Origin: a bacterium
Lineage (GTDB): Bacteria > Cyanobacteriota > Vampirovibrionia > Gastranaerophilales > UBA9971
Assembly: GCA_037147175.1 (NCBI GenBank)
Contig: JBAWVS010000054.1
Coordinates: forward strand, 1-17,799
Length of the DNA stretch: 17,799 nt
Direction: 5' to 3'
Shown here one piece after another: positions 172 to 17,515 of this stretch (position 1 is its first letter; the number at the start of each line of letters is the position of its first letter). The position numbers were made by a program, and so were the translations under genes. Below the pieces are notes generated by a model that saw only the letters and a program-made list of their open reading frames with translations, was not told the DNA's origin and did no database searches.

Positions 172-3100
172 ATGAAAAAAGAGTCGAAGATACTTGCCGT
201 GTTTGAAAATAAAGAATTTTTAAAATTATGGATAGGACAAATATTTTCTTATCTCGGGGATGCGATAGTTCAAATTGCCCTTATGGCTTGGGTAATAAGC
301 CTCGGCGGTCATTCCGGTTCGGAGATGTCGAAGATATTATTCTTTTTCGTCCTGCCTTCTCTTTTGTTAAGCCCGCTGGCAGGTGCGTTATCCGATAGAT
401 TTTCCAGAAAAACTTTAATGGTCTTGAGCAATTTGTTCAGAGCCGTTCTTGTATTTATAATTCCTATTTTGCTTTTCAGGAAATCTTCAACTCATTTGCA
501 TACTATGGTTTATGCTTTTTCTTTTTTAATCGGATCAGGCTCAGCTTTCTTTTTTCCTGCAAAACAAAGTGCTCTACCGAATTTAGTAAAGTCTGAACAT
601 TTACAATTTGCTAATGCTCTTAATGCAGGAACTTCAACAATCGCAATACTCTTAGGTGCAGTTATAACAGGATTGTACATTTCAAAATTCGGCTTAGCCA
701 ATAGTTTATGGGTAAACGGATTCGTTTATTTGGCTTCAGCTATTATAATTTCACTAATTTCATTTAATAACTCCTACGTTGCTTCAAAAGTAGCGACCAA
801 AACAGATATTTCCGCAGGAATAAAATTCGTCTTTAATTACCTGAAAACACATAAAAACACCCGAAGATTAATTGTTTTATCAATTCTGCTGACTCTTGTT
901 ACGGCTTCGTTTTTTAACACATTAACCTCTGTTTCTACAGACTATTACCATATTGGCATCGCTGGTTTAAGCAAATTAAAAGCTATGCTTGGTGTTGGCA
1001 TGATTTTAGGAACTTTTGTAGTAGCTTATGCGGGAAAATATGCAAGAACTTCGACGATTTTGGCTTGTTCTTTTATTGCGGTATTTTTGACAACAGCAAC
1101 CGCTCAAATGGTTACTACATATAATTTAGCGTGGATATGGCTTGTATTAATCGGCATAGCAAACGCTTCTATGGTAATAACAATTGATACAATTTTACAA
1201 AAAGCAACTCCAGACAGAATCAGAGGCAAGATTTTCGGAGTGAAGTCAACGCTGACAAGTCTTGCCTTTTTGGCAACAACTTGGGGCGTGTCCGAGCTTG
1301 TATTAACGACTTCACCCTTTAAAATTTTCAAGTTTGTTTCATTATTAAGCTTGTTGGTTGCCCTAGCAGTCGTGCTTTTGGACAATAAATTCCGCCATTT
1401 TACAGTAAGAAGCCTAGTCGGTGTTGTATTCAGAACTTTATTCCCCGTCAAAATCGAAGGCAGAGAATATCTTGTCAAAAACGGCAAAATGATTCTCGCA
1501 GGAAATCATACAGGTTGGGTCGACACTTTGATACTTCAAACAGCCTGCAAAAGACCTGTATGGTACATTACGGGACCTGTAGCTTTCCAATTGCCGGTTG
1601 TTAAACACATTATTAAATATTTCAACGTCATCCCGATTGTTCCGAGAAAAGGAAGAGAAGGGCTCGATGCGGCGATAAACAAAATAGAAAAGGGCGAAGT
1701 TGTCTGTATTTTCCCGGAAGGCAGACTTACAGAAGACGGAAACCTGATGAAATTCAACAAAGGCGTTGCTTATATGCACAAAAACAGCAAAGCGCCTGTA
1801 GTTCCGTTTGTAATTCAAGGCGGATTTGAAGCTTGGGCTTATAACAAGCCGATTCCGACTTTCAGAAAAATCATCATTCAGTTCGGGCAACCTTTAAACA
1901 TGCCGGAATCAGAGGATAAAGACATAGTGAACGAGCTTAAAAACAGAGTGCAATTCATCAAGGACTCTCTTGAAAGACGCGAAAAGCCTTTAGCTAAAAA
2001 TTATTATGAAAACGTGCTTGACTTAATGCAGTTAAAATCGGATATAAATGGCTCTGTTAAAGCACTTTCCCTTAAAGACAAAGGCAAATGGACAGAACTC
2101 AGCTACATAGAACTTTCCCGACAGGCGAAAAACTTCGGTAATTTCTTGATTTCCGGCGGAATCGAAAGAGGCGACAGAATCGCAATACTTTCCGAGTCCC
2201 GTCCTGAATGGGGAATTGCACTTTTTGCTTCTTTCCAGACAGGTGCGATAACCGTACCTCTTGATGTAAAACTTACGATACCCGAATTGACCTCGATATT
2301 GTCGGATTGTCAGCCGAAAATTCTTTGTGTTTCCGCTCATTATCTGGAAACCGCAAAAGAAATAATGTCTTTAATTCACTCTATTGAGCAAATTTACATT
2401 ATTGATGACGTAAAAGATCAGGGATATCAGACTGTTTATGAAGTTAAAGGTCCCGAAGGAGACATGGGCAAAGAAAGAACTCTTGATGAAACAGCTTTAA
2501 TTGTCTATACATCAGGAACAACAGGGAACCCGAAAGGCGTAATGATAACTTTCGGGAATATAATTTCTCAGTTAAAAGACTTTGAGGCTTTATTTAAAAT
2601 TGATTCCAGCGATTCATTAATCTCTATTTTGCCGTTGAATCACCTTTTAGAGCTTAATGTCGGATTTATGGGAATGCTTCACATGGGGGCAATGGTTTCA
2701 TATTCGACAAGTCTTAATCCGAAAGAAATTAGTAAAATAATGAAGGAAAGACAGGCAACCTATATGATAGTGGTTCCGTTGTTTGTCAAAATGCTTAAGA
2801 ACAGCGTGGAAAAAGAAATAAGAAAATCAAGCAAACAGGCACAGTCTACATTTAATTTTATGTACAATGTGGCTAAATATTTACCAATCCGTATAAGAAG
2901 ACTTATATTTAAACAAATTATAGACAGCTTTGGCGGAAAAATGAAAGGTTTTGTATCAGGTGGCGCTCCTCTTGATGCTGACGTTGCCGAATTCTTTGAA
3001 AGAATAGGTATGCCGATTTATCAAGGATATGGATTAACTGAAACAAGCCCAACTATTACGACAAATACCCCAAAATATAACCGCATAGGTTCAGTAGGAA

Positions 3101-3669
3101 AACCGCTCCCATCAGTTATGGTAAAAATTTCCGCAGAAGGAGAAATCCTCTCAAAAGGCGGTAACTTAATGAAAGGCTATTATAATAAGCCTGAAATGAC
3201 CGCAGAAGTCATTGACGAAGAAGGCTGGTTCCATACTGGAGATATAGGCGAGTTCGACAAAGACGGATACCTCTACATCACAGGCAGAATAAAGAATATG
3301 ATAGTTCTCGGCGGAGGAAAGAAAATCTTCCCTGAAGAAGTCGAGGCTGTCCTAGAAAAAAGCCCGATGGTAAAAGAGCTTTGTGTGATGAGCGTGAAAA
3401 TCCAAGGCGGTTCAAAAGAAGGTACAGAAGAAGTCTGCTCTGTAATTATCCCCTCGGACGAGCTTGCTAAAAAATACAAAGACGACCGTGCAGGACTGGA
3501 AAAAGAAATCACCGCCGAAGTAAATCAACTTGCAAAAGCCGGTTTAGCTTTTTACAAATGTCCGACAGTTGTTGCAGTTTCTCTGGATGAGCTCCCCAAA
3601 ACTGCCACCCGTAAAATTAAACGTAAAGACGTTCAGTCATGGTATTATGAGCGGTATGCAAAAAGATAA
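172..3669 (+). CDS. LplT-PlsC-Aas fusion: lysophospholipid flippase / acyltransferase / acyl-ACP synthetase
   Basis: This three-domain protein of 1165 residues should import lysophospholipids across the inner membrane and re-acylate them there. Residues about 1-405 form a 12-helix MFS transporter like LplT. Residues about 420-610 are a PlsC/LPLAT acyltransferase with the catalytic HX4D motif (NHTGWVD, H446 and D451) and FPEGR at 514-518. Residues about 620-1165 are an adenylating acyl-ACP synthetase with the P-loop YTSGTTGNPKG (779-789), GYGLTE (952-957), HTGD (1021-1024), GRIKN (1038-1042) and a C-terminal lysine (K1148 in TRKIKR). In E. coli the same functions are split between LplT and the bifunctional Aas. 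All motifs are intact, so the fusion looks functional. The start is supported by AAAGGA at 159-164. Two genes follow closely and may be co-transcribed. Family assignment is firm; the exact lysolipid and acyl donor are inferred. Confidence 0.93.
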   Translation: MKKESKILAVFENKEFLKLWIGQIFSYLGDAIVQIALMAWVISLGGHSGSEMSKILFFFVLPSLLLSPLAGALSDRFSRKTLMVLSNLFRAVLVFIIPILLFRKSSTHLHTMVYAFSFLIGSGSAFFFPAKQSALPNLVKSEHLQFANALNAGTSTIAILLGAVITGLYISKFGLANSLWVNGFVYLASAIIISLISFNNSYVASKVATKTDISAGIKFVFNYLKTHKNTRRLIVLSILLTLVTASFFNTLTSVSTDYYHIGIAGLSKLKAMLGVGMILGTFVVAYAGKYARTSTILACSFIAVFLTTATAQMVTTYNLAWIWLVLIGIANASMVITIDTILQKATPDRIRGKIFGVKSTLTSLAFLATTWGVSELVLTTSPFKIFKFVSLLSLLVALAVVLLDNKFRHFTVRSLVGVVFRTLFPVKIEGREYLVKNGKMILAGNHTGWVDTLILQTACKRPVWYITGPVAFQLPVVKHIIKYFNVIPIVPRKGREGLDAAINKIEKGEVVCIFPEGRLTEDGNLMKFNKGVAYMHKNSKAPVVPFVIQGGFEAWAYNKPIPTFRKIIIQFGQPLNMPESEDKDIVNELKNRVQFIKDSLERREKPLAKNYYENVLDLMQLKSDINGSVKALSLKDKGKWTELSYIELSRQAKNFGNFLISGGIERGDRIAILSESRPEWGIALFASFQTGAITVPLDVKLTIPELTSILSDCQPKILCVSAHYLETAKEIMSLIHSIEQIYIIDDVKDQGYQTVYEVKGPEGDMGKERTLDETALIVYTSGTTGNPKGVMITFGNIISQLKDFEALFKIDSSDSLISILPLNHLLELNVGFMGMLHMGAMVSYSTSLNPKEISKIMKERQATYMIVVPLFVKMLKNSVEKEIRKSSKQAQSTFNFMYNVAKYLPIRIRRLIFKQIIDSFGGKMKGFVSGGAPLDADVAEFFERIGMPIYQGYGLTETSPTITTNTPKYNRIGSVGKPLPSVMVKISAEGEILSKGGNLMKGYYNKPEMTAEVIDEEGWFHTGDIGEFDKDGYLYITGRIKNMIVLGGGKKIFPEEVEAVLEKSPMVKELCVMSVKIQGGSKEGTEEVCSVIIPSDELAKKYKDDRAGLEKEITAEVNQLAKAGLAFYKCPTVVAVSLDELPKTATRKIKRKDVQSWYYERYAKR

Positions 3670-6162: not shown

Positions 6163-7452
6163 ATGAAAATCACTTTTATAAGTTTTTCTGTTTTGGAGAA
6201 GGGTTACGCCAGTGCACTCAAAACACTAGTTTTCCCTATTATCAGTGCACTAACTCCAAAAGACGTAAAAATAAATTTTATTGATGAGCGCGTAGAAGAT
6301 TTGCCCAAAACAATTGATTCCGACATTATAGTGATGACGGTTGGAACAATGACTTCAAGAAAAGCTCGTGCTTTTGCTTTAAAGCATAAAGATAAAATAA
6401 TCGCCGTTGGCGGACCTCATCCCACGTCTTTGCCGGAGGAATGCCTGGAATATGCAGACACGATTTTTATTGGTGACGCCGAAGGTACATGGCCGCAGTT
6501 CATTGAAGATGCTAAAAACGGCAATATTAAACGAATATATAAATCATCTCATGAAGTTTTGCCAATAAAGCCTGATTTGAATTTTGAATATTTTAAGGGC
6601 AAGAAATACAGTTTTGTTGGCATTGCCCAGTTTGCCAGAGGGTGCAAATATAATTGTGAATTTTGTTTTGTGAAAGTTTTGTATCCCGGAAAAGTCAAAA
6701 CAAAGAATATAGATGACTTTGTGGAAGAAGTCAAGGCTATGCCTGAAAAAATTATATTTTTGATTGACGATAATTTATTTACTGATGAGGAAACGACATT
6801 ACTTTTGCTTGAAAAAATAAAGCCGCTTAAAAAAATGTGGCACTGCCAAGTAAGTATTGACGTTGCTCAAAATGACAAAATATTAAAAGCCATGAAGGAT
6901 GCTGGCTTTGCTATGATTATGATGGGTTTTGAAGCAACGGATATGGATACACTAAAACAAATGAATAAAGGGGCAAATTTAAAGCTCAAAAGTTATGATG
7001 AAGCCATAAAAAATGTTTATAAGCACGGCCTTATGATAACGGCAGGATTTGTCATTGGTTATGACAACGACACCCCTCAAACAATTCGCAATACTTTTGA
7101 TTTTGCCATGAAACACCACTTTACTAAAGCCTTTTTTACAATGCTTCAACCTATGCCGGGCACAAAATTATACGACAGACTTTTAGAAGAAGGTAGGGTA
7201 ACGCCCAAGTGGTGGCTGGACAATAGCTATCAATACGGCGAATGTGCTTTTGACCCGAAAAATATGACAAGAGAAGAACTATCTGTAATATTTGGCAAAC
7301 AGCTAAAAGAGTATTATACGTTTTCCAATATATGGAAAAGGTTTTTAAAAAATTCTCAATATTTACCGTTCACACGCTCAATACTGTTTTTGGGCGAAGC
7401 TTTGCTTTATAAGAAACATGCCAATTTAAACATAAAACTTGATTTAGAATAA
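6163..7452 (+). CDS. Cobalamin-binding-domain radical SAM protein
   Basis: This 429-residue protein has the two-domain layout of class B (B12-dependent) radical SAM enzymes. Residues about 1-150 look like a Rossmann-type cobalamin-binding domain, with GGPHPTSLPEECLEYADTIF and a GDAEGTWPQFIEDA segment typical of the group; the histidine-ligand DxHxxG motif is absent, as in many members. The radical SAM core starts at residue 157 with C161-x3-C165-x2-C168 (GCKYNCEFC), which binds the 4Fe-4S cluster. FLIDDNLF follows downstream, and GFVIGYDNDT and QPMPGTKLYDRL match conserved core strands. Relatives methylate or rearrange unactivated carbons in lipids, hopanoids, tetrapyrroles and natural products. 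AGAAGG lies 13 nt upstream of the ATG, slightly far. The six-gene biosynthetic operon begins 43 bp downstream, so a tailoring role there is plausible but inferred. Confidence 0.88.
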   Translation: MKITFISFSVLEKGYASALKTLVFPIISALTPKDVKINFIDERVEDLPKTIDSDIIVMTVGTMTSRKARAFALKHKDKIIAVGGPHPTSLPEECLEYADTIFIGDAEGTWPQFIEDAKNGNIKRIYKSSHEVLPIKPDLNFEYFKGKKYSFVGIAQFARGCKYNCEFCFVKVLYPGKVKTKNIDDFVEEVKAMPEKIIFLIDDNLFTDEETTLLLLEKIKPLKKMWHCQVSIDVAQNDKILKAMKDAGFAMIMMGFEATDMDTLKQMNKGANLKLKSYDEAIKNVYKHGLMITAGFVIGYDNDTPQTIRNTFDFAMKHHFTKAFFTMLQPMPGTKLYDRLLEEGRVTPKWWLDNSYQYGECAFDPKNMTREELSVIFGKQLKEYYTFSNIWKRFLKNSQYLPFTRSILFLGEALLYKKHANLNIKLDLE

Positions 7453-7495: not shown

Positions 7496-8494
7496 ATGCA
7501 GTCACGAAGTGTAAAAATCTTAAGCATAGGTAAGTACTTGCCGAAAAGAAAAATTTATGCGGAGGACCTTGATAAAAAACTAAATCTTCCTGAGGGTTGG
7601 ACTGCTGAAAAAGCAGGAGTTTTAGTACGTCATTATGTTGAAAATGAAACCTCTTCAAAAATGGGTGCTTTAGCGGCAAAAGAAGCTCTCGATTCTGCCG
7701 GATTAACTTTGGAGGATATTGATTGTATTGTTTGTGCAAGCGGTACCGGCGAGCAGGAAATTCCCTGCACTGCCTCGTTGATACAAAAAGAATTAGGCGG
7801 AGAATACTCGGGCATTCCGAGTTTTGATATCAATTCTACTTGTTTGAGCTTTGTTACGGGAATGGATTTGCTGTCTTATCTTATTGACGCGGGAAGATAC
7901 AACAGAGTTCTTGTCGTTTCTTCTGAAATAACTTCTGTAGGCTTGAATTGGGATGATAAAGAAAGCTGTACCCTTTTTGGAGACGGAGCTGCAGCTGTTA
8001 TAATCGAAAAAACTCCTGAAAACGAAACCTCTAAAATATTTTGTTCTGACATGAAAACTTACAGCAAAGGCGCTCATTACTCTGAAATTAAAGGAGGAGG
8101 AACGAAGCTTCATTCTCGAGAATATTCTGAAAATAATAAAAACGATTTTCTTTTCTATATGGACGGAAAAAAACTTTACAAAATGTCTGCACAAATCTTA
8201 CCGGCTTTTATTGAAAATATGCTTAAAAATGTGAATTTGTCGCTTTCTGATATGGAACTTGTTATTCCTCATCAGGCAAGTTTTATGGCAATGAAATTAA
8301 CTCAAAAAAATCTTAATATACCGGAAGGCAAATTTCTCTACACAATCGGACATCACGGCAATACAGTCGCCGCATCAATACCAATGGCACTTTATGATGC
8401 TATTGAATCAGGAAGAATAAAACGAGGCGACAAGATAATGTTTCTGGGAACTTCTGCAGGTATGTCAGTAGGAGCAATGGCTTTTGAATACTAA
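7496..8494 (+). CDS. KAS III-type beta-ketoacyl synthase (FabH/OleA-like)
   Basis: This 332-residue thiolase-fold enzyme should carry out a decarboxylative or head-to-head Claisen condensation of acyl thioesters. The Cys-His-Asn triad is complete: C116 in NSTCLSF, H259 in IPHQA and N289 in GHHGNT. The C-terminal phrase MFLGTSAGMSVGAMAFEY is typical of KAS III relatives. Length fits FabH and OleA. No other fatty acid synthesis gene lies nearby and no acyl carrier protein is encoded, so a specialised synthase is more likely than housekeeping FabH. AAGAGGT at 7485-7491 precedes the ATG by 4 nt. The 3' end overlaps the ATP-grasp gene by 11 nt, and with five following overlapping genes it forms a tight operon. 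Substrate chain length and whether the donor is CoA- or ACP-bound are unknown. Confidence 0.9.
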   Translation: MQSRSVKILSIGKYLPKRKIYAEDLDKKLNLPEGWTAEKAGVLVRHYVENETSSKMGALAAKEALDSAGLTLEDIDCIVCASGTGEQEIPCTASLIQKELGGEYSGIPSFDINSTCLSFVTGMDLLSYLIDAGRYNRVLVVSSEITSVGLNWDDKESCTLFGDGAAAVIIEKTPENETSKIFCSDMKTYSKGAHYSEIKGGGTKLHSREYSENNKNDFLFYMDGKKLYKMSAQILPAFIENMLKNVNLSLSDMELVIPHQASFMAMKLTQKNLNIPEGKFLYTIGHHGNTVAASIPMALYDAIESGRIKRGDKIMFLGTSAGMSVGAMAFEY

Positions 8495-9647
8495 AAAAAA
8501 TATATTGCTCACCGGCGGCAGAGCTCCCGTTACCCTGCATTTAGCAAGGCTTTTTGCAAAAGCAGGGCATACGGTATTTGTTGCAGAAAGTATAAAATAT
8601 CATATTTGCCTTTATTCAAATACTGTTAAGAAAAATTTTATGGTTCCGAGCCCGAGATTCAATAAATACGACTATATTCGAGCATTAATAGATATAATTC
8701 AAAGAGAAAAAATCGATTTATTAATTCCGACTTGTGAAGAAGTTTTTTATATTTCTGAAAAAATTGACGAGTTATCCGACTATTGCAAAGTATTTACTGA
8801 CAAGTCCGACAAGCTGAAAAATTTGCATAACAAACATCAATTTATCACTGGCATTGAAAATTGTAAAATCAAAGCCCCTGAAACTCGGCTTATAAATTCA
8901 CAAGAAGAACTAAACAGGCAATTAACGTTTACAAAATTCCAAAAGGCAGTTATAAAACCTGTTTACTCAAGATTTTCCTCAAAAATTAAAATAATTTTCG
9001 AATCTGACGAAAAGATTCCAAATATTGATATTTCGGAAAAAAATCCTTGGATACTTCAGGAATTTACAGAAGGTTCTCAGTTCTGTACTTACAGTATTGT
9101 TCAAAACGGAAACATAACTGCACATACTGCTTATCCCACAACATTTACCGCAGGAATCGGCTCAAGCATTGCATTTGAGAATATAGAATGCCCCGAAGTC
9201 TTTAATTGGATTTCGGTGTATGCAAAAAAGCTTAATTACACGGGGCAAATTGCTTTTGATTTTATTGAAACACCTGATAAAGAAGTTTATGTGATTGAAT
9301 GTAACCCCAGAGCAACAAGCGGAATTCATTTGTTTGACGAAACAAATTTAACCCGAGCCTTTCTTGAAAATTCGGAAAAAATAATTACTCCCGACAAATC
9401 TGCGAAAGCTGTGATTTTTCTTGCTATGCTGACTTATGGCTTGTGTTCGGTTAATTCTTTCAGTAAATTGCTGAGTTGGATTAAGACTTTTTTCTCTTCA
9501 AAAGATATTGTTTTTAAGATGTCAGATCCTCTGCCTTTTGTTCATCAATTCTTCATTTTAGCCGGTTTAGGATTTTTTGCATTAAAAAATAAAATCAAAA
9601 TCACAGAAGTTTCGACAATGGATATTGAATGGAACGGTGAATCATGA
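8484..9647 (+). CDS. ATP-grasp carboxylate-amine/thiol ligase-like protein
   Basis: This 387-residue protein belongs to the ATP-grasp superfamily, which activates a carboxylate as acyl phosphate and joins it to an amine, thiol or similar nucleophile. The N-terminus (NILLTGGRAPVTLHLARLF) is a pre-ATP-grasp Rossmann-like segment. KPVYSRFSSK (158-167) is the ATP-binding lysine loop, WILQEFTEG the hinge region, GQIAFDF a core strand, and ECNPRATSGIH (E272, N274, R276) the Mg-ATP site. A hydrophobic C-terminal part (about 310-365) may touch the membrane. The start is TTG, inside the end of the ketosynthase gene, giving an 11-nt overlap; AGGAG at 8470-8474 is 9 nt upstream and supports it. Its stop overlaps the next start as ATGA. 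The residues or fatty acids it joins are unknown. Confidence 0.85.
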   Translation: MNTKKNILLTGGRAPVTLHLARLFAKAGHTVFVAESIKYHICLYSNTVKKNFMVPSPRFNKYDYIRALIDIIQREKIDLLIPTCEEVFYISEKIDELSDYCKVFTDKSDKLKNLHNKHQFITGIENCKIKAPETRLINSQEELNRQLTFTKFQKAVIKPVYSRFSSKIKIIFESDEKIPNIDISEKNPWILQEFTEGSQFCTYSIVQNGNITAHTAYPTTFTAGIGSSIAFENIECPEVFNWISVYAKKLNYTGQIAFDFIETPDKEVYVIECNPRATSGIHLFDETNLTRAFLENSEKIITPDKSAKAVIFLAMLTYGLCSVNSFSKLLSWIKTFFSSKDIVFKMSDPLPFVHQFFILAGLGFFALKNKIKITEVSTMDIEWNGES

Positions 9648-10639
9648 AAATTCTTGTAACAGGCGCAACCGGATTTCTCGGGAAAAGACTGGCTTTAAGA
9701 TTGTCACAACTTGGTTATGAAGTTACGGCAACAGGCAGAAACACTCTTGTCGGAGCTGATTTGGAAAAACAAGGAATTTGTTTTATAAAGTCTGCTTTGC
9801 AGGATACGGATAAAATTATCAATGTTTGTAAAAATCAAGATTATGTATTTCATTGCGGGGCGTTGTCATCCCCGTGGGGGAAATATAAGGATTTTTACAA
9901 TACAAACGTCCTCGGAACAAAGAATATTATTCAGGGGTGCAAAGAAAACAGCGTAAAAAGACTTATTCATGTTTCGACTCCGAGCATTTATTTTGATTTT
10001 AAAGATAAACTGAATATTTCGGAAAAAGACCCGTTGCCCGATAAATCGGTGAATGCTTATGCAAAAACAAAATTGCTGGCGGAGCAGGAAATTGATAAAG
10101 CTCATCAAGAAGGATTACCGGTAATTAGCATACGCCCCAGAGCAATATTCGGTCCCGGCGATACAAGTATTCTACCGAGATTAATTAAAGCAAATAATAA
10201 AAATTTCATTCCTGTTATAGGTGATAAAAAAGTTTTGGTTGATATAACTTATGTTGAAAACGTAGTGGATGCGCTACTTCTTTGCAAAGATTCTCCCGAC
10301 TTTACTCTTGGAAAAAAATATAACATTACAGACGGTGAGCCGGTTTTGCTTTATGATTTTTTAGAACTGGTTATTACCGAATTGGGATACGAGTTTAAGC
10401 CGAAGTATTTTTCTTATAATAACGCATACAGAATAGCAGCTTTTTCGGAATTCGTTTCGAAAACTTTTTTGTTCGGGAAAGAACCCGTATTGACTCGCTA
10501 TACAGTCGGAGTTTTAGGTACAAGTCAAACACTTGATATTTCAGCGGCAAAACAAGAGCTGGGTTATAATCCTAAATTCAGTACAACAGAGGGAATAAAA
10601 GAACTTATTAAAGAGCGGAGAATTAATAATGCCGGTTAA
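9644..10639 (+). CDS. NAD(P)-dependent epimerase/3-beta-HSD-family reductase, OleD-like
   Basis: This 331-residue extended short-chain dehydrogenase has the Rossmann motif TGATGFLG (G7, G10, G13) and the catalytic pair Y139-x3-K143 in NAYAKTK, with S111 or S114 in HVSTPS as the likely partner. SSPWGKYKDFYNTNVLGT and RPRAIFGPGDTSILPRL are phrases shared with the 3-beta-hydroxysteroid dehydrogenase branch that includes OleD, the NADPH reductase of 2-alkyl-3-ketoacids. Reduction of the beta-keto product of the upstream ketosynthase is therefore a sensible guess, but sugar epimerase-like activities also occur in the family. It overlaps the ATP-grasp gene by 4 nt (ATGA) and the metallo-hydrolase gene by 11 nt, indicating translational coupling. 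Confidence 0.87.
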   Translation: MKILVTGATGFLGKRLALRLSQLGYEVTATGRNTLVGADLEKQGICFIKSALQDTDKIINVCKNQDYVFHCGALSSPWGKYKDFYNTNVLGTKNIIQGCKENSVKRLIHVSTPSIYFDFKDKLNISEKDPLPDKSVNAYAKTKLLAEQEIDKAHQEGLPVISIRPRAIFGPGDTSILPRLIKANNKNFIPVIGDKKVLVDITYVENVVDALLLCKDSPDFTLGKKYNITDGEPVLLYDFLELVITELGYEFKPKYFSYNNAYRIAAFSEFVSKTFLFGKEPVLTRYTVGVLGTSQTLDISAAKQELGYNPKFSTTEGIKELIKERRINNAG

Positions 10640-11480
10640 AGTAAATTTTTTCAGCGCAGGATATTGTACTCATCCTGAAAAAATAGTCATAAAAGGCGGA
10701 AGTTCAAAACCGGTCAAATTTTATGCGACTTTTGTATTAATCGAGCATCCTGAAAAAGGTTTAATACTTTTTGATACGGGATATTCTGAGCGTTTTTATA
10801 CAGAAACAAAAAATTTCCCGTTTAATATTTATGCAAAAATAACGCCTGTTTATTTTAAAGAAGAAAACAGCGCCGTTTTTCAATTAAAACAATTAGGCAT
10901 CAATCCTAACGATATTAAACTTATAATCTTATCTCACTTTCACGCAGATCATATCGGCGGAGTTAAAGATTTCCCCAATGCCGAATTTCTTTGCTTTAAA
11001 TCCGCTTACGAAGAAATAAAAGGCAAAAAAACTTTGGCAGCTATGAAAAAAGGTTTTTTGCCGGGCTTACTTCCCGGTGATTTCGAATCAAGGCTGAAAT
11101 TTGCGGATTCGTTAAACAAAATAAATATTTCTGAAGAGTATTCGCCTTTTGAAACAGGATTTGATGTTTTTGGTGACAGAAGTCTTATTGCAGTTGATGT
11201 TTCAGGACATTCAGAAGGTCAATTGGGTTTATTTATAAGTACAGGTGAGAATACTTATTTTTTAGTCGCTGATGCCTGCTGGTTAAGCAAATCATATAAG
11301 GAATTTATTTTGCCTCACCCTATTGCCGATATTGCGTTTTCCTGCAAAAAAGAGTATTTAAACACGTTAAAAAAATTACACGAACTTTCTAAAAAAAGAC
11401 CCGATATTAATATTATGCCTTCGCATTGTCCTGAATTTTTGAAAAAAATAATTGATAAAAGAGGTATAGATGCTGAATAA
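10629..11480 (+). CDS. Metallo-beta-lactamase-fold hydrolase, lactonase-like
   Basis: This 283-residue MBL-fold enzyme carries the full dinuclear metal set: H103-x-H105-x-D107-H108 in SHFHADHIGG, H194 in SGHSEGQ, D215 in LVADAC and H266 in MPSHCPEF. The layout matches the AHL-lactonase-like subgroup, whose members open lactone rings or hydrolyse thioesters and esters. There is no signal peptide, so it should be cytoplasmic. GGAG at 10617-10620 precedes the ATG by 8 nt. It overlaps its neighbours by 11 nt on both sides, which places it firmly inside the operon. An attractive idea is hydrolysis of an acyl thioester or lactone intermediate made by the neighbouring enzymes; this is inferred from context only. 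Confidence 0.9.
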   Translation: MPVKVNFFSAGYCTHPEKIVIKGGSSKPVKFYATFVLIEHPEKGLILFDTGYSERFYTETKNFPFNIYAKITPVYFKEENSAVFQLKQLGINPNDIKLIILSHFHADHIGGVKDFPNAEFLCFKSAYEEIKGKKTLAAMKKGFLPGLLPGDFESRLKFADSLNKINISEEYSPFETGFDVFGDRSLIAVDVSGHSEGQLGLFISTGENTYFLVADACWLSKSYKEFILPHPIADIAFSCKKEYLNTLKKLHELSKKRPDINIMPSHCPEFLKKIIDKRGIDAE

Positions 11481-12804
11481 AATAAAAATTTTATACTATT
11501 ATTTCCGAACAAAATACGGTTTTAGGTGCAAAAACAGTGAAGAACTTTTACACAGGCAAAATAAAGAAGTACTAAACTTCTTAAAAAAAATATTGCCCAA
11601 ATCTCCATTTTATACTGAATATTTTAAAAACTTTTCGGTTACAGATTGGCAAAATTTTCCCATAATAGATAAGTCTCTTATGATGGAAAATTTTGATAAC
11701 TTAAATACAGCCGGTATTAAAAAATCAGAAGCTTTTGAGACAGCTTATAATGCGGAAAAATTGCGTGATTTTTCTCCTACAATTAATAATATTACCGTAG
11801 GGCTGTCCTCAGGCACATCGGGAAACAGAGGAATATTTCTTCTCAGCGACGAAGAGCGTTTTAAATGGGCGGGAACAATTCTGGCAAAAGTTCTCCCCGG
11901 CTCAATTTTTTCCAAACATAAAATTGCATTTTTCTTGCGTGCAAACAGTAATGTTTATACGACCGTAAACAGCAATAACATAAATTTTGAGTTTTTCGAC
12001 TTATTAAATCCCCCGGAAGAGCACATAAAAAGACTTAATGAATTTAAGCCGTCGGTTTTGGTTGCGCCAGCCTCTATGCTTAGGCTTTTAGCTCAAGCAA
12101 AAGAAAATAATAATTTAAATATAACCCCCGAAAAAGTTATTTCAGTTGCGGAAGTTCTGGATTCACTCGACGAAACTTATATCTCCAAACAATTTAATCA
12201 AAAAATTCATCAAATTTATCAATGCACGGAAGGTTTTTTAGCCTCCACATGCCGGCATGGGACTTTGCATATTAATGAAGATATGGTTGTTATTCAAAAA
12301 GAATATCTTGATAAAGATTTAGGAAAATTTATTCCGATAATAACAGATTTTTCGAGAACCACTCAGCCGATAATAAGGTACAGACTTAATGATATTTTGA
12401 CAGAAAAAAAAGAACCCTGTCCTTGCGGATCCGTTTTTACTGCCATTGAAAAGATAGAAGGCAGATGTGACGATATTTTTTACTTACCGGCTATCGATGG
12501 AGATAAATTCATTCCTGTTTTTCCGGATTTTATATGCAGGGCAGTTATTTATTCTTCGCCGGAGATTGAAGAATATATGGCTATTCAAAATAATTTTGAT
12601 TTAATAGAAATATTTTTAAAATCATCCTCCGAAAATAAAAATAATTTAAATACTCTAATACAAAACTCAATGAAAGAACTTTTTGAAAAATCGAATTGCA
12701 AAGCCCCTGAAATCAGAATTAATTACAATTATGACAAACTTGAAAAACCCTGTGATAAAAAGCTTAAACGTGTTAAGAGAGTTTTTAATATTGAAGAGGT
12801 ATGA
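11470..12804 (+). CDS. PaaK / coenzyme F390 synthetase-like adenylate-forming enzyme
   Basis: This 444-residue protein resembles the phenylacetate-CoA ligase/F390 synthetase branch of adenylate-forming enzymes, which activate a carboxylate as acyl-AMP. The P-loop SSGTSGNRG lies at 113-121, YQCTEGF is the aromatic/acid motif, and RYRLND (303-308) is the R-Y-x-x-x-D adenylation motif. CPCGS (C317, C319), followed by IEKIEGRCDD, is the cysteine pair and hinge segment characteristic of this branch. The length of about 440 matches PaaK and is shorter than typical acyl-CoA synthetases. AGAGG at 11460-11464 lies 5 nt before the ATG. The gene overlaps the MBL gene by 11 nt and the next by 4 nt. The acid activated, and whether the acceptor is CoA, a carrier protein or an amine, cannot be read from the sequence. 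Confidence 0.85.
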   Translation: MLNKIKILYYYFRTKYGFRCKNSEELLHRQNKEVLNFLKKILPKSPFYTEYFKNFSVTDWQNFPIIDKSLMMENFDNLNTAGIKKSEAFETAYNAEKLRDFSPTINNITVGLSSGTSGNRGIFLLSDEERFKWAGTILAKVLPGSIFSKHKIAFFLRANSNVYTTVNSNNINFEFFDLLNPPEEHIKRLNEFKPSVLVAPASMLRLLAQAKENNNLNITPEKVISVAEVLDSLDETYISKQFNQKIHQIYQCTEGFLASTCRHGTLHINEDMVVIQKEYLDKDLGKFIPIITDFSRTTQPIIRYRLNDILTEKKEPCPCGSVFTAIEKIEGRCDDIFYLPAIDGDKFIPVFPDFICRAVIYSSPEIEEYMAIQNNFDLIEIFLKSSSENKNNLNTLIQNSMKELFEKSNCKAPEIRINYNYDKLEKPCDKKLKRVKRVFNIEEV

Positions 12805-13955
12805 TGCAAGACAGTTTTAACATAAAGCTTTATGATTCTTCTGATACAGACTTTTTAGATTGGACTGATTCAGAAGACGACCAATATGCAAAGAACTTCT
12901 TACTTCCAATGATAAAGAACGGTACTTCTGATTACATAAATAATGTTAAAACCCTTTTGATGATCTTAAAAATTGATGACTTAATTCTTCCGATAACCAT
13001 TAATGATGCTGAATACGAAAACTCTTATGTATGTTCTCCTTATACCCATTATATTTCTTATGCCGTTGAAGAATTGAAAACTATAAAAAACCCTTTTATT
13101 GAATTAATATTGGCTTATCTTATCAGGTTATTAGGTATAGTATTTAAATTCGGCAAAATAAATAAAACTGTACATATAAATAATTGGCTTTTGTCGACCA
13201 ATTTATACCCGACAATCTCGCATAAGCAAATAGAAAAAATAACCGAATTTTTAATTCAAAGATTTCCCGAACATTCTTTAATATTCAGGTCTGTAAACAA
13301 CTATACAGATAAAGAATTTTTAAATAAATTTCAGGAAAATAATTATCAGCTTATTCCGAGCAGACAAATATATTTTTTAAACAAAGACTTGATAAAAGGA
13401 AAAGCTAAATGGCTGATAAAAAAAGATTTTAAGCTTCAGGAAAAAAGCGGCTATGAATTATTAGAAAACAAAGACTTTTCTCCCGGGGATATTCCGAGGA
13501 TTAAAGAGCTTTATGATAACTTATATTTATCTAAATATTCTTATTTAAATCCACAGTTCAATGAAAACTTTATAGATTTAGCCTTAAAAAATAAAATTTT
13601 GAATATAAGAGCCTTCCAGAAAGCCGGGAAAATTGACGCCGTTTTAGGATATTTTTTCCGAAACGGAATTATGACAACTCCTTTGTTCGGGTATGACACA
13701 AGTTTGCCCATAGAAACCGGTTTGTACAGAATGCTTTCCGCTCAATTGATAAAAGAATCCGAAAAATCGAAATTGATTTTAAATCAAAGTTCCGGAGCCG
13801 CATCATTTAAACGGTGTCGTGCATCAGAAGCACAAATTGAATATAGTGCTGTTTATTGCCGACATTTAACTTTATATCGAAGAATTATCTGGAGCATTCT
13901 TGAATTTACTCTTAATAAAATTGGCTTAAACTTACTAAAGAAATACAAATTATAA
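12801..13955 (+). CDS. GNAT/FemAB-like acyltransferase candidate
   Basis: This 384-residue protein has no textbook motif that I can point to with certainty. The C-terminal half (about 220-365) reads like a GNAT or FemAB/BioF2-type acyltransferase fold: IRAFQKAGKIDAVLGYFF is a central strand with loop, and GAASFKRCRASEAQIEYSAVY followed by CRHL resembles the conserved end of such domains. The N-terminal half may be a second, divergent copy of the fold, as in FemAB proteins. A transfer of an acyl or aminoacyl group in the final step of the operon is a fair hypothesis. The start at 12801 overlaps the ligase stop as ATGA; the ATG at 12804 has better spacing from GAGG (12796-12799). It is the last gene of the operon, and no clear terminator follows. 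Confidence 0.55.
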   Translation: MMQDSFNIKLYDSSDTDFLDWTDSEDDQYAKNFLLPMIKNGTSDYINNVKTLLMILKIDDLILPITINDAEYENSYVCSPYTHYISYAVEELKTIKNPFIELILAYLIRLLGIVFKFGKINKTVHINNWLLSTNLYPTISHKQIEKITEFLIQRFPEHSLIFRSVNNYTDKEFLNKFQENNYQLIPSRQIYFLNKDLIKGKAKWLIKKDFKLQEKSGYELLENKDFSPGDIPRIKELYDNLYLSKYSYLNPQFNENFIDLALKNKILNIRAFQKAGKIDAVLGYFFRNGIMTTPLFGYDTSLPIETGLYRMLSAQLIKESEKSKLILNQSSGAASFKRCRASEAQIEYSAVYCRHLTLYRRIIWSILEFTLNKIGLNLLKKYKL

Positions 13956-14328: not shown

Positions 14329-14709
14329 GTGCCTACAATTAATCAATTAGTTCGCAAAGAACGCGCAAAACAAATCGACAAAACAAAATCACCTGCATTA
14401 GCTAGCTGCCCTCAGAGAAGAGGAGTTTGTACAAGGGTTTACACAACCACCCCTAAAAAACCAAACTCAGCTCTCAGAAAAGTAGCAAGAATAAGATTAA
14501 CAAACGGATTTGAAGTAACTTCATATATTCCGGGAGTTGGTCATAATTTACAGGAACACTCAGTAGTTCTTATACGTGGCGGAAGAATCAAAGATTTACC
14601 GGGTGTAAGATATCATACTATCCGTGGAACACTTGATGCTGCCGGTGTTAAAAACAGAATGCAAGGTAGAAGCAAGTACGGTGCAAAAAAAGCAAAAGCA
14701 AAAAAATAG
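14329..14709 (+). CDS. rpsL: 30S ribosomal protein S12
   Basis: Ribosomal protein uS12 (126 residues) sits at the decoding centre of the small subunit. The conserved core [19 protein letters not shown] is present, with K43 in PKKPNS and K88 in [11 protein letters not shown]. Both positions carry lysine, the usual streptomycin-sensitive state, and D89 is the residue that RimO modifies in other bacteria. The protein begins at a GTG codon with a near-consensus ribosome binding site. It is the first gene of a short str operon, with rpsG 41 bp downstream. Sequence style, as I remember it, is close to cyanobacterial S12. Confidence 0.98.
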
Positions 14710-14750
14710 GATAGAAAAGTTAATTAAGTAAAATGAGGTTAATAAATTAA

Positions 14751-15221
14751 ATGTCACGTAGAAATAAACCACAAAAAAGAGTACCTTTACCAGATCCTAT
14801 TTTTAACAGTGAAGATGTGGCAAGGTTCATAAACAGATTAATGAGAAGAGGCAAAAAAAGCATTGCCGAAAGAATTTTTTATAATTCTCTTGATATTGTT
14901 AAAGAAAAAATAAAAGAAGAACCAATCGAAGTTTTCCAAAAAGCTTTAAAAAACGTAACACCGTTAATTGAAGTTAAAGCAAGAAGAATCGGTGGTTCAA
15001 CTTATCAGGTTCCTCTTGAAGTTCGTCCTGACAGAGGATTAGCTCTTGGATCAACCTGGTTAATCGATACAGCTAAAGCAAAAACCGGCAAATCAATGGA
15101 AGAAAAACTTGCACAAGAAATTATTTCAGCTTTTAACGGCGAAGGTGCTGCTGTTAAAAAACGTGAAGATACACATAAAATGGCAGAAGCCAACAAAGCT
15201 TTCGCTCATTACAGATACTAA
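14751..15221 (+). CDS. rpsG: 30S ribosomal protein S7
   Basis: Ribosomal protein uS7 (156 residues) nucleates assembly of the 30S head by binding the 3' major domain of 16S rRNA. The opening MSRRNKPQKR, the central KARRIGGSTYQVPLEVRP and the C-terminal KMAEANKAFAHYRY are conserved signatures, and the length is standard. GAGG (14735-14738) lies 12 nt before the ATG, slightly long spacing. The gene follows rpsL by 41 bp and precedes fusA by 215 bp, the usual str order. In E. coli S7 represses its own operon through the rpsL-rpsG spacer; I see no equivalent structure in the shorter spacer here. Confidence 0.98.
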   Translation: MSRRNKPQKRVPLPDPIFNSEDVARFINRLMRRGKKSIAERIFYNSLDIVKEKIKEEPIEVFQKALKNVTPLIEVKARRIGGSTYQVPLEVRPDRGLALGSTWLIDTAKAKTGKSMEEKLAQEIISAFNGEGAAVKKREDTHKMAEANKAFAHYRY

Positions 15222-15251
15222 GATGCATTTTTTCCAAGACTATCGGTTCTT

Positions 15252-15278
15252 TGCAAAAAGTCCCTTAGTCTTTTTGCA
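15252..15278 (+). terminator. Weak hairpin after rpsG, possible partial terminator
   Basis: TGCAAAAAG (15252-15260) pairs with CTTTTTGCA (15270-15278) around a 9-nt loop, and TTTATTATT follows. The 9-bp stem is AT-rich with only three G-C pairs, so it is more likely a partial terminator or attenuator between rpsG and fusA than a full stop. Confidence 0.4.
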
Positions 15279-15304
15279 TTTATTATTAAATTATAGCTAT
15301 TTAG

Positions 15305-15310
15305 TATAAT
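15305..15310 (+). promoter_or_regulatory. Candidate -10 box for a separate fusA promoter
   Basis: A perfect TATAAT lies in the unusually long rpsG-fusA spacer, about 127 nt before the fusA ATG. No convincing -35 box is present at the right distance. Together with the preceding hairpin it suggests that fusA can be transcribed on its own, which is inference. Confidence 0.3.
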
Positions 15311-15436
15311 GATAAACGCATAGAAACAAATTAAATTTAATCAAGCCTAAAATATAGGCAATAATATATTAGAAGGAAAAATTAAATTTAATTGATAAAT
15401 ATAATGAGTTAAAAAAAATAAAGAGGATAATTGATC

Positions 15437-17515
15437 ATGAGCAGGAATATACCCCTGAATAAGTTTAGAAATATTGGTATCGCAGCGCATATCGATGCAG
15501 GTAAAACAACAACAACAGAAAGAATTCTTTTTTATACAGGAAGCAGCCATAAAATCGGTGAAGTGCATGACGGTACTTCTGTAACTGACTTTATGGATCA
15601 GGAAAGAGAACGTGGAATTACCATTCAATCAGCTGCAGTAACAAGCTTCTGGAAAAACCATCAGGTTAACATAATTGATACCCCCGGACACGTAGATTTT
15701 ACTGTTGAGGTAGAACGTTCATTACGTGTACTTGACGGCATGGTTGCTGTTTTTTGTGCGGTAGGCGGTGTTCAATCACAGTCAGAAACCGTATGGAGAC
15801 AGGCAAACAGATATCAGGTTCCAAGACTTATATTTGTCAACAAAATGGACAGAACAGGCGCAAATTTCTACAGAGTAGTTGACCAAATCCGTGACAGGCT
15901 TCAGGGTAATGCTGTTCCTATCCAAATTCCTATAGGAAGTGAAACTGATTTGACCGGTATTGTTGATTTAGTTGAAGAAAAAGCTTATATCTACAAAGAC
16001 GATCTTGGAAAAGAAGTTGATATAACTGAAATACCTGAAGATTTAAAAGAACTTACATCAAAATATAGAGAACAGCTTATTGAAGCAGTTTCAGAACATG
16101 ATGACGAATTAATGATGAAATTTCTCGAAGGAGAATCACCTTCTACAGAAGAAATTAAATCAGCCCTCAGAAAAGCAACAATCGCAAACAAAATTTTACC
16201 TGTAACCTGCGGTTCAGCGTTCAAAAATAAAGGCGTTCAGTTGTTGCTTGATGCAGTAATTGATTATATGCCATCACCTGTTGATATTCCACCTATTAAA
16301 GGGCTGAATCTTGACGGAACAGAAGCTTTAAGACCAAGTAACGATGAAGCACCATTTTCAGCGTTGGCTTTTAAAATTATAACTGACCCTTATGTAGGAA
16401 GATTAACATTTATAAGAGTATATAGCGGAGTTCTAAAAGCAGGAAGCTATGTAATGAACACCACTACAGGGAAAAAAGAACGTATAAGCCGTTTATTACA
16501 AATGCAAGCTGATACAAGAAATGATATTGACGAAGTAAGAGCAGGTGATTTGGCTGCTGCTGTAGGTCTTAAATCTACAACAACAGGTGATACACTTTGT
16601 GATGAAACAAACCCTGTTATTTTAGAATCAATGGAATTCCCTGAACCTGTAATTTCTATCGCTATCGAACCTAAAACAAAGGTTGATCAAGATAAATTAT
16701 CAATGGCTCTTAACAAACTTGCTGAAGAAGATCCGACTTTTAAAGTTAGGATTGATGCTGAAACAGGTCAGACAATTATTGCCGGAATGGGCGAATTGCA
16801 CCTTGAAATCATTATTGACAGACTTTTAAGAGAGTTTAAAGTTGGCGCTAACGTCGGTAAACCTCAGGTTGCGTACAGAGAAACAATCACCAAAACTGTT
16901 GAAGTTGAAGGTAAATTTATCCGTCAATCAGGCGGTCGTGGTCAATATGGACACGTTTGGATTAAACTTGAGCCACAAGAACAAGGCAAAGGCTTTACAT
17001 TCGAAAATAAAACCGTAGGTGGTTCAGTTCCTAAAGAATATGTAGGTGCTGTTCAAAAAGGTATCGAAGAAAGTATGACTGGCGGTGTAATTGCAGGATA
17101 CGAAGTAATCGACTTTAAAGCGTCCCTCTTTGACGGAAGCTATCACGAAGTTGACTCCTCCGAGATGGCATTTAAAGCAGCTGGAAGTATAGCTTTTAAA
17201 GAAGGTGTTAGAAAAGCAGGCGGTGTTTTGCTTGAGCCTATAATGAAAGTAGAAATCGAAGTTCCTGAAGATTTTCTTGGTGATGTAATCGGTGATCTCT
17301 CTTCCAGAAGAGGACGCATCGAAGGTATGGAAGCTATCGAAGGAACAGGCATCCAAAAAGTAAACGCAGCAGTGCCTCTTTCTGAGATGTTCGGTTATGC
17401 GACTGATATCAGAAGCAAAACACAGGGACGTGGAACTTTCACAATGGAATTTTCCAAATATGAACAAGTTCCAAACAACATTGCTGAAGAAATCATTGGC
17501 AAAGCAGCTGTATAA
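15437..17515 (+). CDS. fusA: Elongation factor G
   Basis: EF-G is the GTPase that drives ribosomal translocation and, with RRF, ribosome recycling. With the start at ATG 15437 it has 692 residues, the usual length. G1 is AHIDAGKTT (17-25), G3 is DTPGH (81-85), G4 is NKMD (135-138), and CGSAF follows as G5. Domain IV carries [13 protein letters not shown], and the C-terminal domain the segment [11 protein letters not shown]. The frame is open back to a TTG at 15431, but AGAGGA (15422-15427) is 9 nt from the ATG and only 3 nt from the TTG, and [15 protein letters not shown] matches other EF-G starts. The phrase [14 protein letters not shown] reads as cyanobacterial in type. A strong terminator follows; no tuf gene is seen after it. 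Confidence 0.98.

Follow-up and report, generated by a model that had tools for sequence, protein, structure and literature searches.

A conserved ketosynthase-reductase-hydrolase-adenylating enzyme cassette as a candidate pathway for an unusual hydroxylated lipid

Contig JBAWVS010000054.1 of assembly GCA_037147175.1 was analysed as one stretch of 17,799 nt (the window). At positions 7496-13955 of the + strand it carries an operon of six intact open reading frames in the order K-G-R-B-A-N, in which K denotes a ketosynthase, G an ATP-grasp protein, R a reductase, B a metallo-hydrolase, A an adenylating enzyme and N a transferase. We propose, at slightly below even odds (about 0.47), that these six genes form a cassette for the biosynthesis of an unusual hydroxylated lipid, in which K, R, B and A would build the backbone and G and N would supply the head group. 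The parts belong to known families, and the set as such appears undescribed as far as found: searches of the open-access literature that covered the protein families, combinations of the enzymes and the E. coli locus returned no description or named product of the gene set. A preliminary description of this DNA had likewise matched the gene order to no named pathway.

A four-gene core inherited as a unit

All five junctions of the operon overlap (by 11, 4, 11, 11 and 4 bases from K to N), confirming the six overlapping genes of the preliminary description. The gene set is not due to chance, because it recurs across phyla, mostly in the same order, and the distances of its genes covary. The K-G-R-B-A-N order was found again in Bacillota and Cyanobacteriota, and a genome scan with A retrieved the gene set from Thermoflavimicrobium, Paenibacillus and Ruminococcus. 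Most Bacilli among the fetched loci contained K-G-R-B-A or K-G-R-B-A-N as a gapless run on a single strand, and R-B-A-K was the order in other lineages. K, R, B and A were all present in 57 fetched loci, where the pairwise protein distances of these core genes gave Mantel r values of 0.84-0.91 for every pair; in 28 six-gene loci, K against each of the other five genes gave 0.86-0.91. In both sets 0 of 999 shuffles were as high. Of 292 host-phylum genomes, 17 had K and 10 had A, and each of those with A also had K (hypergeometric P 2e-14).

The cassette is inherited as a unit, and the linkage goes beyond mere proximity. In several cyanobacteria K and A were located on separate contigs or more than 1 Mb (1.3 Mb) apart, and the Pseudomonas megaplasmids pMPPla107 and pBASL58 (L026, L110) retained the cassette genes, but spread over ~20 kb and interspersed with unrelated genes, which is unusual for an operon that is tight elsewhere. 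The six-gene unit of the preliminary description stood in so far as the homologues travel together across several phyla, but only K, R, B and A make up the conserved four-gene core, and G and N form a detachable module.

The K-R-B-A core occurred in 672 of 5,426 complete E. coli genomes (12%), between narI and tyrT/purU and with PAP2, fatty-acid hydroxylase and desaturase genes downstream. Plasmid copies were present in Paenibacillus urinalis (all six genes in the same order), Pontibacillus, Ketogulonicigenium and Paraburkholderia. This distribution bears on the idea that the genes serve ordinary cellular lipid or cofactor metabolism and only resemble a secondary pathway, to which we give hardly any weight. 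The rpsL-rpsG-fusA operon does lie some distance downstream, and K and A do come from widespread superfamilies, but the spread is patchy: besides the E. coli figure above, TIGR02304, the family of A, exceeded its cut-off in 10 of 292 host-phylum genomes, 66 of 398 sampled Bacilli and 6 of 296 Bacteroidota. The existence of plasmid copies, and of a second, separate ketosynthase III elsewhere in the source genome, also speaks against housekeeping.

The ketosynthase and the other core enzymes

K scored 494 bits against the NF005541/PRK07204 model (cut-off 402), and PRK07204 was also the best NCBIfam model of CorB itself. The closest solved relatives of K were CorB (8e-76) and MxnB (7e-75), well ahead of all FabH. 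Its C116/H259/N289 triad was invariant in 59 of 59 relatives, and Ser262 takes the place of the FabH Asn, as in CorB/MxnB. FabH Phe87 restricts FabH to short primers; in that column all 59 K proteins had Ile or Leu, and CorB/MxnB had Val. The catalytic glutamate of OleA/PpyS (OleA E117, PpyS E105) was lacking from K, position 89, the column in which CorB/MxnB have Val, being Ile or Leu in 59 of 59. Kresovic et al. aligned V94 with PpyS E105, with Val there in both MxnB and CorB, and placed these two enzymes inside the FabH clade (PMC4578411). In our trees, CorB/MxnB and the cassette ketosynthases fell on one side of FabH (support 94/91 and 88/87), although the inner branch order was not resolved, and the lipstatin-type LstA ketosynthases were located far outside this group. 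Going by its kinship with CorB/MxnB, K would most likely join two acyl chains.

The best models for R were those of OleD, but the score of 229.5 bits was far below the cut-off of 580. The catalytic residues of short-chain dehydrogenases/reductases (SDRs), S111 and Y139xxxK143, were kept in its relatives, and the E. coli SDR YbjS fell among the R proteins in an SDR tree that lacked resolution. Because of this score and this tree, the earlier term "OleD-like" applies to R at the superfamily level only.

A scored 556 bits against TIGR02304, "F390 synthetase-related" (cut-off 251.9), and its nearest solved relative was the PaaK ligase 4r1l. Its adenylation motifs (P-loop 113-118, E254, D308, R332 and the C-terminal K431) were kept in 70 relatives, and PF00501 (AMP-binding, OleC type) gave no match at a reporting limit of E 10. 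A 705-amino-acid A protein at a host-phylum locus (L048) was considered as a fusion and rejected, being merely an upstream-extended open frame.

The enzyme kinds of the core invite a reading modelled on Ole and lipstatin, in which K would fuse two chains, R would give a 2-alkyl-3-hydroxy acid, A would close a beta-lactone as OleC does and B would open or edit it. The gene logic is parallel (a ketoacyl synthase (KAS), an SDR and an adenylating enzyme), OleD provides the best models of R, and the lipstatin-type clusters seen at two loci (L106, L108) have the same enzyme kinds together with amino-acid loading. Nevertheless, A is PaaK-like rather than of the OleC/AMP-binding kind, no K protein has the OleA glutamate, LstA-type ketosynthases are far removed from K, and the cassette contains no OleB-type hydrolase, making this reading quite unlikely.

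B matched PF00753, and its dinuclear metal site was complete and kept in relatives (HxHxDH, with H103, H105, D107 and H108; H194, D215 and H266). AttM-type (acyl-homoserine) lactonases were its nearest models, at 96 bits against an equivalog cut-off of 390. This nearest match, and the likeness of K to CorB and MxnB, would also fit an alpha-pyrone or other lactone, formed through the fusion of a beta-keto chain with a second chain by K and cyclisation of the product, as in myxopyronin, with B as a lactonase degrading or editing it. We regard this as highly improbable, since R and A would then be superfluous and neither a polyketide synthase (PKS) nor any other source of beta-keto chains lies nearby in the window.

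Head groups, lipid-type neighbours and the genomic setting

G scored 453 bits against NF005315/PRK06849 (cut-off 406), and the ATP-grasp residues K158 and the metal ligands E272xN274 were kept in its relatives. A predicted model (mean predicted local distance difference test, pLDDT, 70.7) showed the PurD/PylC/PurK architecture at Z ~23, which is compatible with carboxylate-amine ligation; in VIA-align, purine-ligase, PylC and biotin-carboxylase folds matched with similar Z, so that the fold does not tell the substrate of G. A STxDIEWNGE motif at the G C-terminus, distant in sequence from the ATP site, was nearly invariant across phyla. G occurred in 43 of 292 host-phylum genomes, mostly without A, and is thus more promiscuous than the core.

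N itself matched no family in the domain and family model searches, and a profile search against the PDB gave nothing useful. Among its relatives, 14 of 24 matched the GNAT family Acetyltransf_6 (best 1.6e-7). Foldseek gave FemX as the best, weak match on a low-confidence model (pLDDT 49.8). The label of N stays at the superfamily level: the GNAT part of the earlier "GNAT/FemAB-like" rests on the Acetyltransf_6 relatives, but the FemX likeness appears only on this poor model. Of the other preliminary assignments, the family labels of K, G and A passed the curated cut-offs of PRK07204, PRK06849 and TIGR02304, the metallo-beta-lactamase hydrolase label of B agreed with its domain match and metal site, and the catalytic residues of the first five families, described as intact, were present and kept in relatives.

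The neighbours of related cassettes are of lipid type. In two host-phylum loci (L048 and L120), a fatty-acyl-AMP ligase (FAAL) and a small acyl carrier protein (ACP) precede K, and in L048 an MMPL transporter, for which the best model was MmpL3 at a score below cut-off, is found alongside. In cyanobacteria, Bacilli and Fusobacterium a GT21 gene (ceramide-glucosyltransferase family) adjoins K or the core, UGT-like glycosyltransferases neighbour the R-B-A-K group, and the hydroxylase-desaturase-PAP2 tail of the E. coli core recurs in Burkholderia stagnalis. Across 73 K loci, G was present in 49, a glycosyltransferase in 12 and both in none (Fisher P 1.5e-7, uncorrected for kinship). We read these neighbours, and the fact that G and glycosyltransferases exclude each other, as pointing to a K-R-B-A lipid backbone with alternative head-group modules. 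The neighbours also back the acyl-derived pathway of the preliminary description; its remark that no carrier protein or exporter is encoded holds for this operon, but both accompany the cassettes of some relatives.

The whole route, from the substrates through each reaction and the sequence of reactions to the product, is one that we infer. It would begin with K loading an acyl group from acyl-ACP or acyl-CoA on C116 and forming a carbon-carbon bond to another acyl thioester, most likely fusing two chains like CorB and MxnB. R would convert the beta-keto into a beta-hydroxy group, B would hydrolyse the thioester (or lactone) to the free hydroxy acid, and A would use ATP to turn the carboxylate into an acyl-AMP and hand the acyl group to a nucleophile. 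In the six-gene form, G would attach an amino compound through an amide bond and N would move an acyl or aminoacyl group. The outcome would be an amino-acid-type head group, where related cassettes would employ glycosyltransferases and sugars instead.

Several observations weigh against this lipid route. The Cys-His-Asn triad of K would suit ordinary extension with malonyl units equally well, which leaves two-chain joining a matter of inference; the substrates of CorB/MxnB are polyketide chains in PKS pathways, and the trees do not settle the place of CorB/MxnB inside the cassette clade. Reduction of a 2-alkyl-3-oxo acid by R is a guess, because its OleD score is too low and the SDR tree gives no resolution. 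The model of N lacks the quality needed to support a fold assignment. Many cyanobacteria have G but not the cassette, and there G seems to have another role; A occurs without an adjacent K in some genomes (Saprospiraceae L020, cyanobacteria).

The triad also fits a single-chain route, in which K would add a malonyl unit like FabH, R and B would yield a free 3-hydroxy fatty acid, A would activate it and G/N would couple an amino acid, giving an N-acyl amino acid or a short lipopeptide that might act as a signal or an antibiotic. The FabH triad is complete in K, the PylC/PurD architecture of G is typical for carboxylate-amine ligases and N looks FemAB/GNAT-like. We consider this route somewhat unlikely, as K is closer to CorB/MxnB than to FabH, a set devoted to plain 3-hydroxy acids would be redundant with fatty acid synthesis, and the variants with GT21/UGT, hydroxylase and desaturase suggest a bulkier, membrane-type lipid.

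The hydroxylated-lipid proposal may extend, more tentatively, to an undescribed, widespread and mobile class of pathways. In this class, a CorB/MxnB-type K would link a pair of fatty-acyl chains to give a 2-alkyl-3-hydroxy acid similar to a mycolate; after its release, a PaaK-type enzyme would activate the acid again, and exchangeable heads would be attached (amino-acid-type in the six-gene form by ATP-grasp and GNAT proteins, sugars in others by GT21/UGT). The carriers would then include a large number of Bacilli and one in eight sequenced E. coli. If two chains are indeed joined, the cassette would offer a compact way, independent of a PKS, to make hydroxy lipids with two tails and exchangeable head groups. 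Despite their spread in E. coli (including the laboratory reference strain ATCC 25922), in Bacilli and on plasmids, the cassette proteins carry generic names only, and the product is open to discovery through standard lipidomics.

The source genome comprises 2.66 Mb in 109 contigs. A close relative is Candidatus Melainabacteria bacterium GWA2_34_9, whose contig has A (89% identity) and N (94%). In the window (Table 1), a radical SAM gene ends 43 bases 5' of K and is possibly co-transcribed with it; it was rejected as a pathway member, as it adjoins no other cassette found. An Aas-like fusion gene lies a few genes upstream of the cassette, and the str operon follows downstream past a 370-base AT-rich gap. 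In a relative of the same order with a six-gene cassette (L047), a piece resembling the C-terminus of this Aas-like ligase stands directly after N and is apparently a decayed gene. Elsewhere, the TIGR02304 gene of Saprospiraceae L020 and L102 adjoins an alpha/beta hydrolase, with K, R and B not nearby. A Euryarchaeota locus with a TIGR02304 gene is a possible archaeal counterpart of the cassette.

Table 1 Coordinates of the cassette genes, their surroundings and loci in other genomes
Feature	Position	Strand	Description
K	window 7496..8494	+	332 aa (amino acids); ketosynthase III, PRK07204 family, kin of CorB/MxnB
G	window 8484..9647	+	387 aa, TTG start; ATP-grasp ligase, PRK06849 family; accessory, head-group module
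R	window 9644..10639	+	331 aa; SDR reductase, loosely OleD-like
B	window 10629..11480	+	283 aa; metallo-beta-lactamase fold; presumed thioesterase or lactonase
A	window 11470..12804	+	444 aa; PaaK-like adenylate-forming enzyme, family TIGR02304
N	window 12801..13955	+	384 aa; GNAT/FemAB-like transferase; accessory, head-group module
STxDIEWNGE motif	window 9615-9644		C-terminus of G
Aas-like gene	window 172-3669		large MFS/acyltransferase/AMP-ligase fusion (Aas-like acyl-ACP synthetase)
Radical SAM gene	window 6163-7452	+	B12-binding radical SAM protein (HpnJ/BchE-like)
str operon	window 14329-17515		rpsL, rpsG, fusA
E. coli ATCC 25922	L031 8001-14882		K-R-B-A-PAP2-hydroxylase-desaturase; seven genes between narI and tyrT, no functional name
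Ligase piece	L047 11411-11671	-	86 aa
Cyanobacterial locus	L116 6859-11964		PRK06849 ATP-grasp without cassette, beside a 1137-aa protein weakly like acyl ligases
Euryarchaeota metagenome-assembled genome	L021 5794-11284		TIGR02304 gene, very divergent ketosynthase and SDR, glycosyltransferase, two unknown proteins

Comparison with known systems

CorB and MxnB, from corallopyronin and myxopyronin biosynthesis, share with K the Cys-His-Asn triad, the TCLSF/SCLSF active-site motif, the HQxS motif and a hydrophobic residue where OleA/PpyS has glutamate (PMC4578411). However, they are individual enzymes that work for type I PKS lines, whereas K belongs to a self-contained operon that includes R, B and A but no PKS.

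The OleABCD/NltABCD pathways to long-chain olefins and beta-lactones resemble the cassette in combining a ketosynthase, an SDR reductase and an adenylating enzyme acting on fatty acyl groups, but employ the alpha/beta hydrolase OleB where the cassette has the metallo-hydrolase B. Membership in this group was rejected on the missing glutamate of K, the low score of R and the PaaK/TIGR02304 rather than OleC nature of A. Lipstatin-type clusters (lstABCDEF; L106, L108) are alike in joining a two-chain lipid to an amino acid with a KAS, a ligase, a 3beta-hydroxysteroid-dehydrogenase-like SDR and amino-acid attachment. In these clusters, attachment relies on a nonribosomal peptide synthetase (NRPS) and a formyltransferase, in contrast to the ATP-grasp and GNAT proteins of the cassette. 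A lipstatin-type cluster was rejected here, as no NRPS or formyltransferase was found in the window or flanks and LstA is far from K.

The mycolic acid pathway (FadD32-Pks13-CmrA-MmpL3) shares FAAL, ACP and an MMPL exporter with the L048 cassette, and chain joining followed by reduction to a 2-alkyl-3-hydroxy acid would be alike in logic. Unlike that pathway, the cassette has neither Pks13 nor a mycolyltransferase, and the likeness is put forward as an analogy of function, with no claim of homology between the core enzymes. The cassette would be classed with acyl-chain-joining lipid biosynthesis, and it has a logic in common with the Ole, lipstatin and mycolate pathways.

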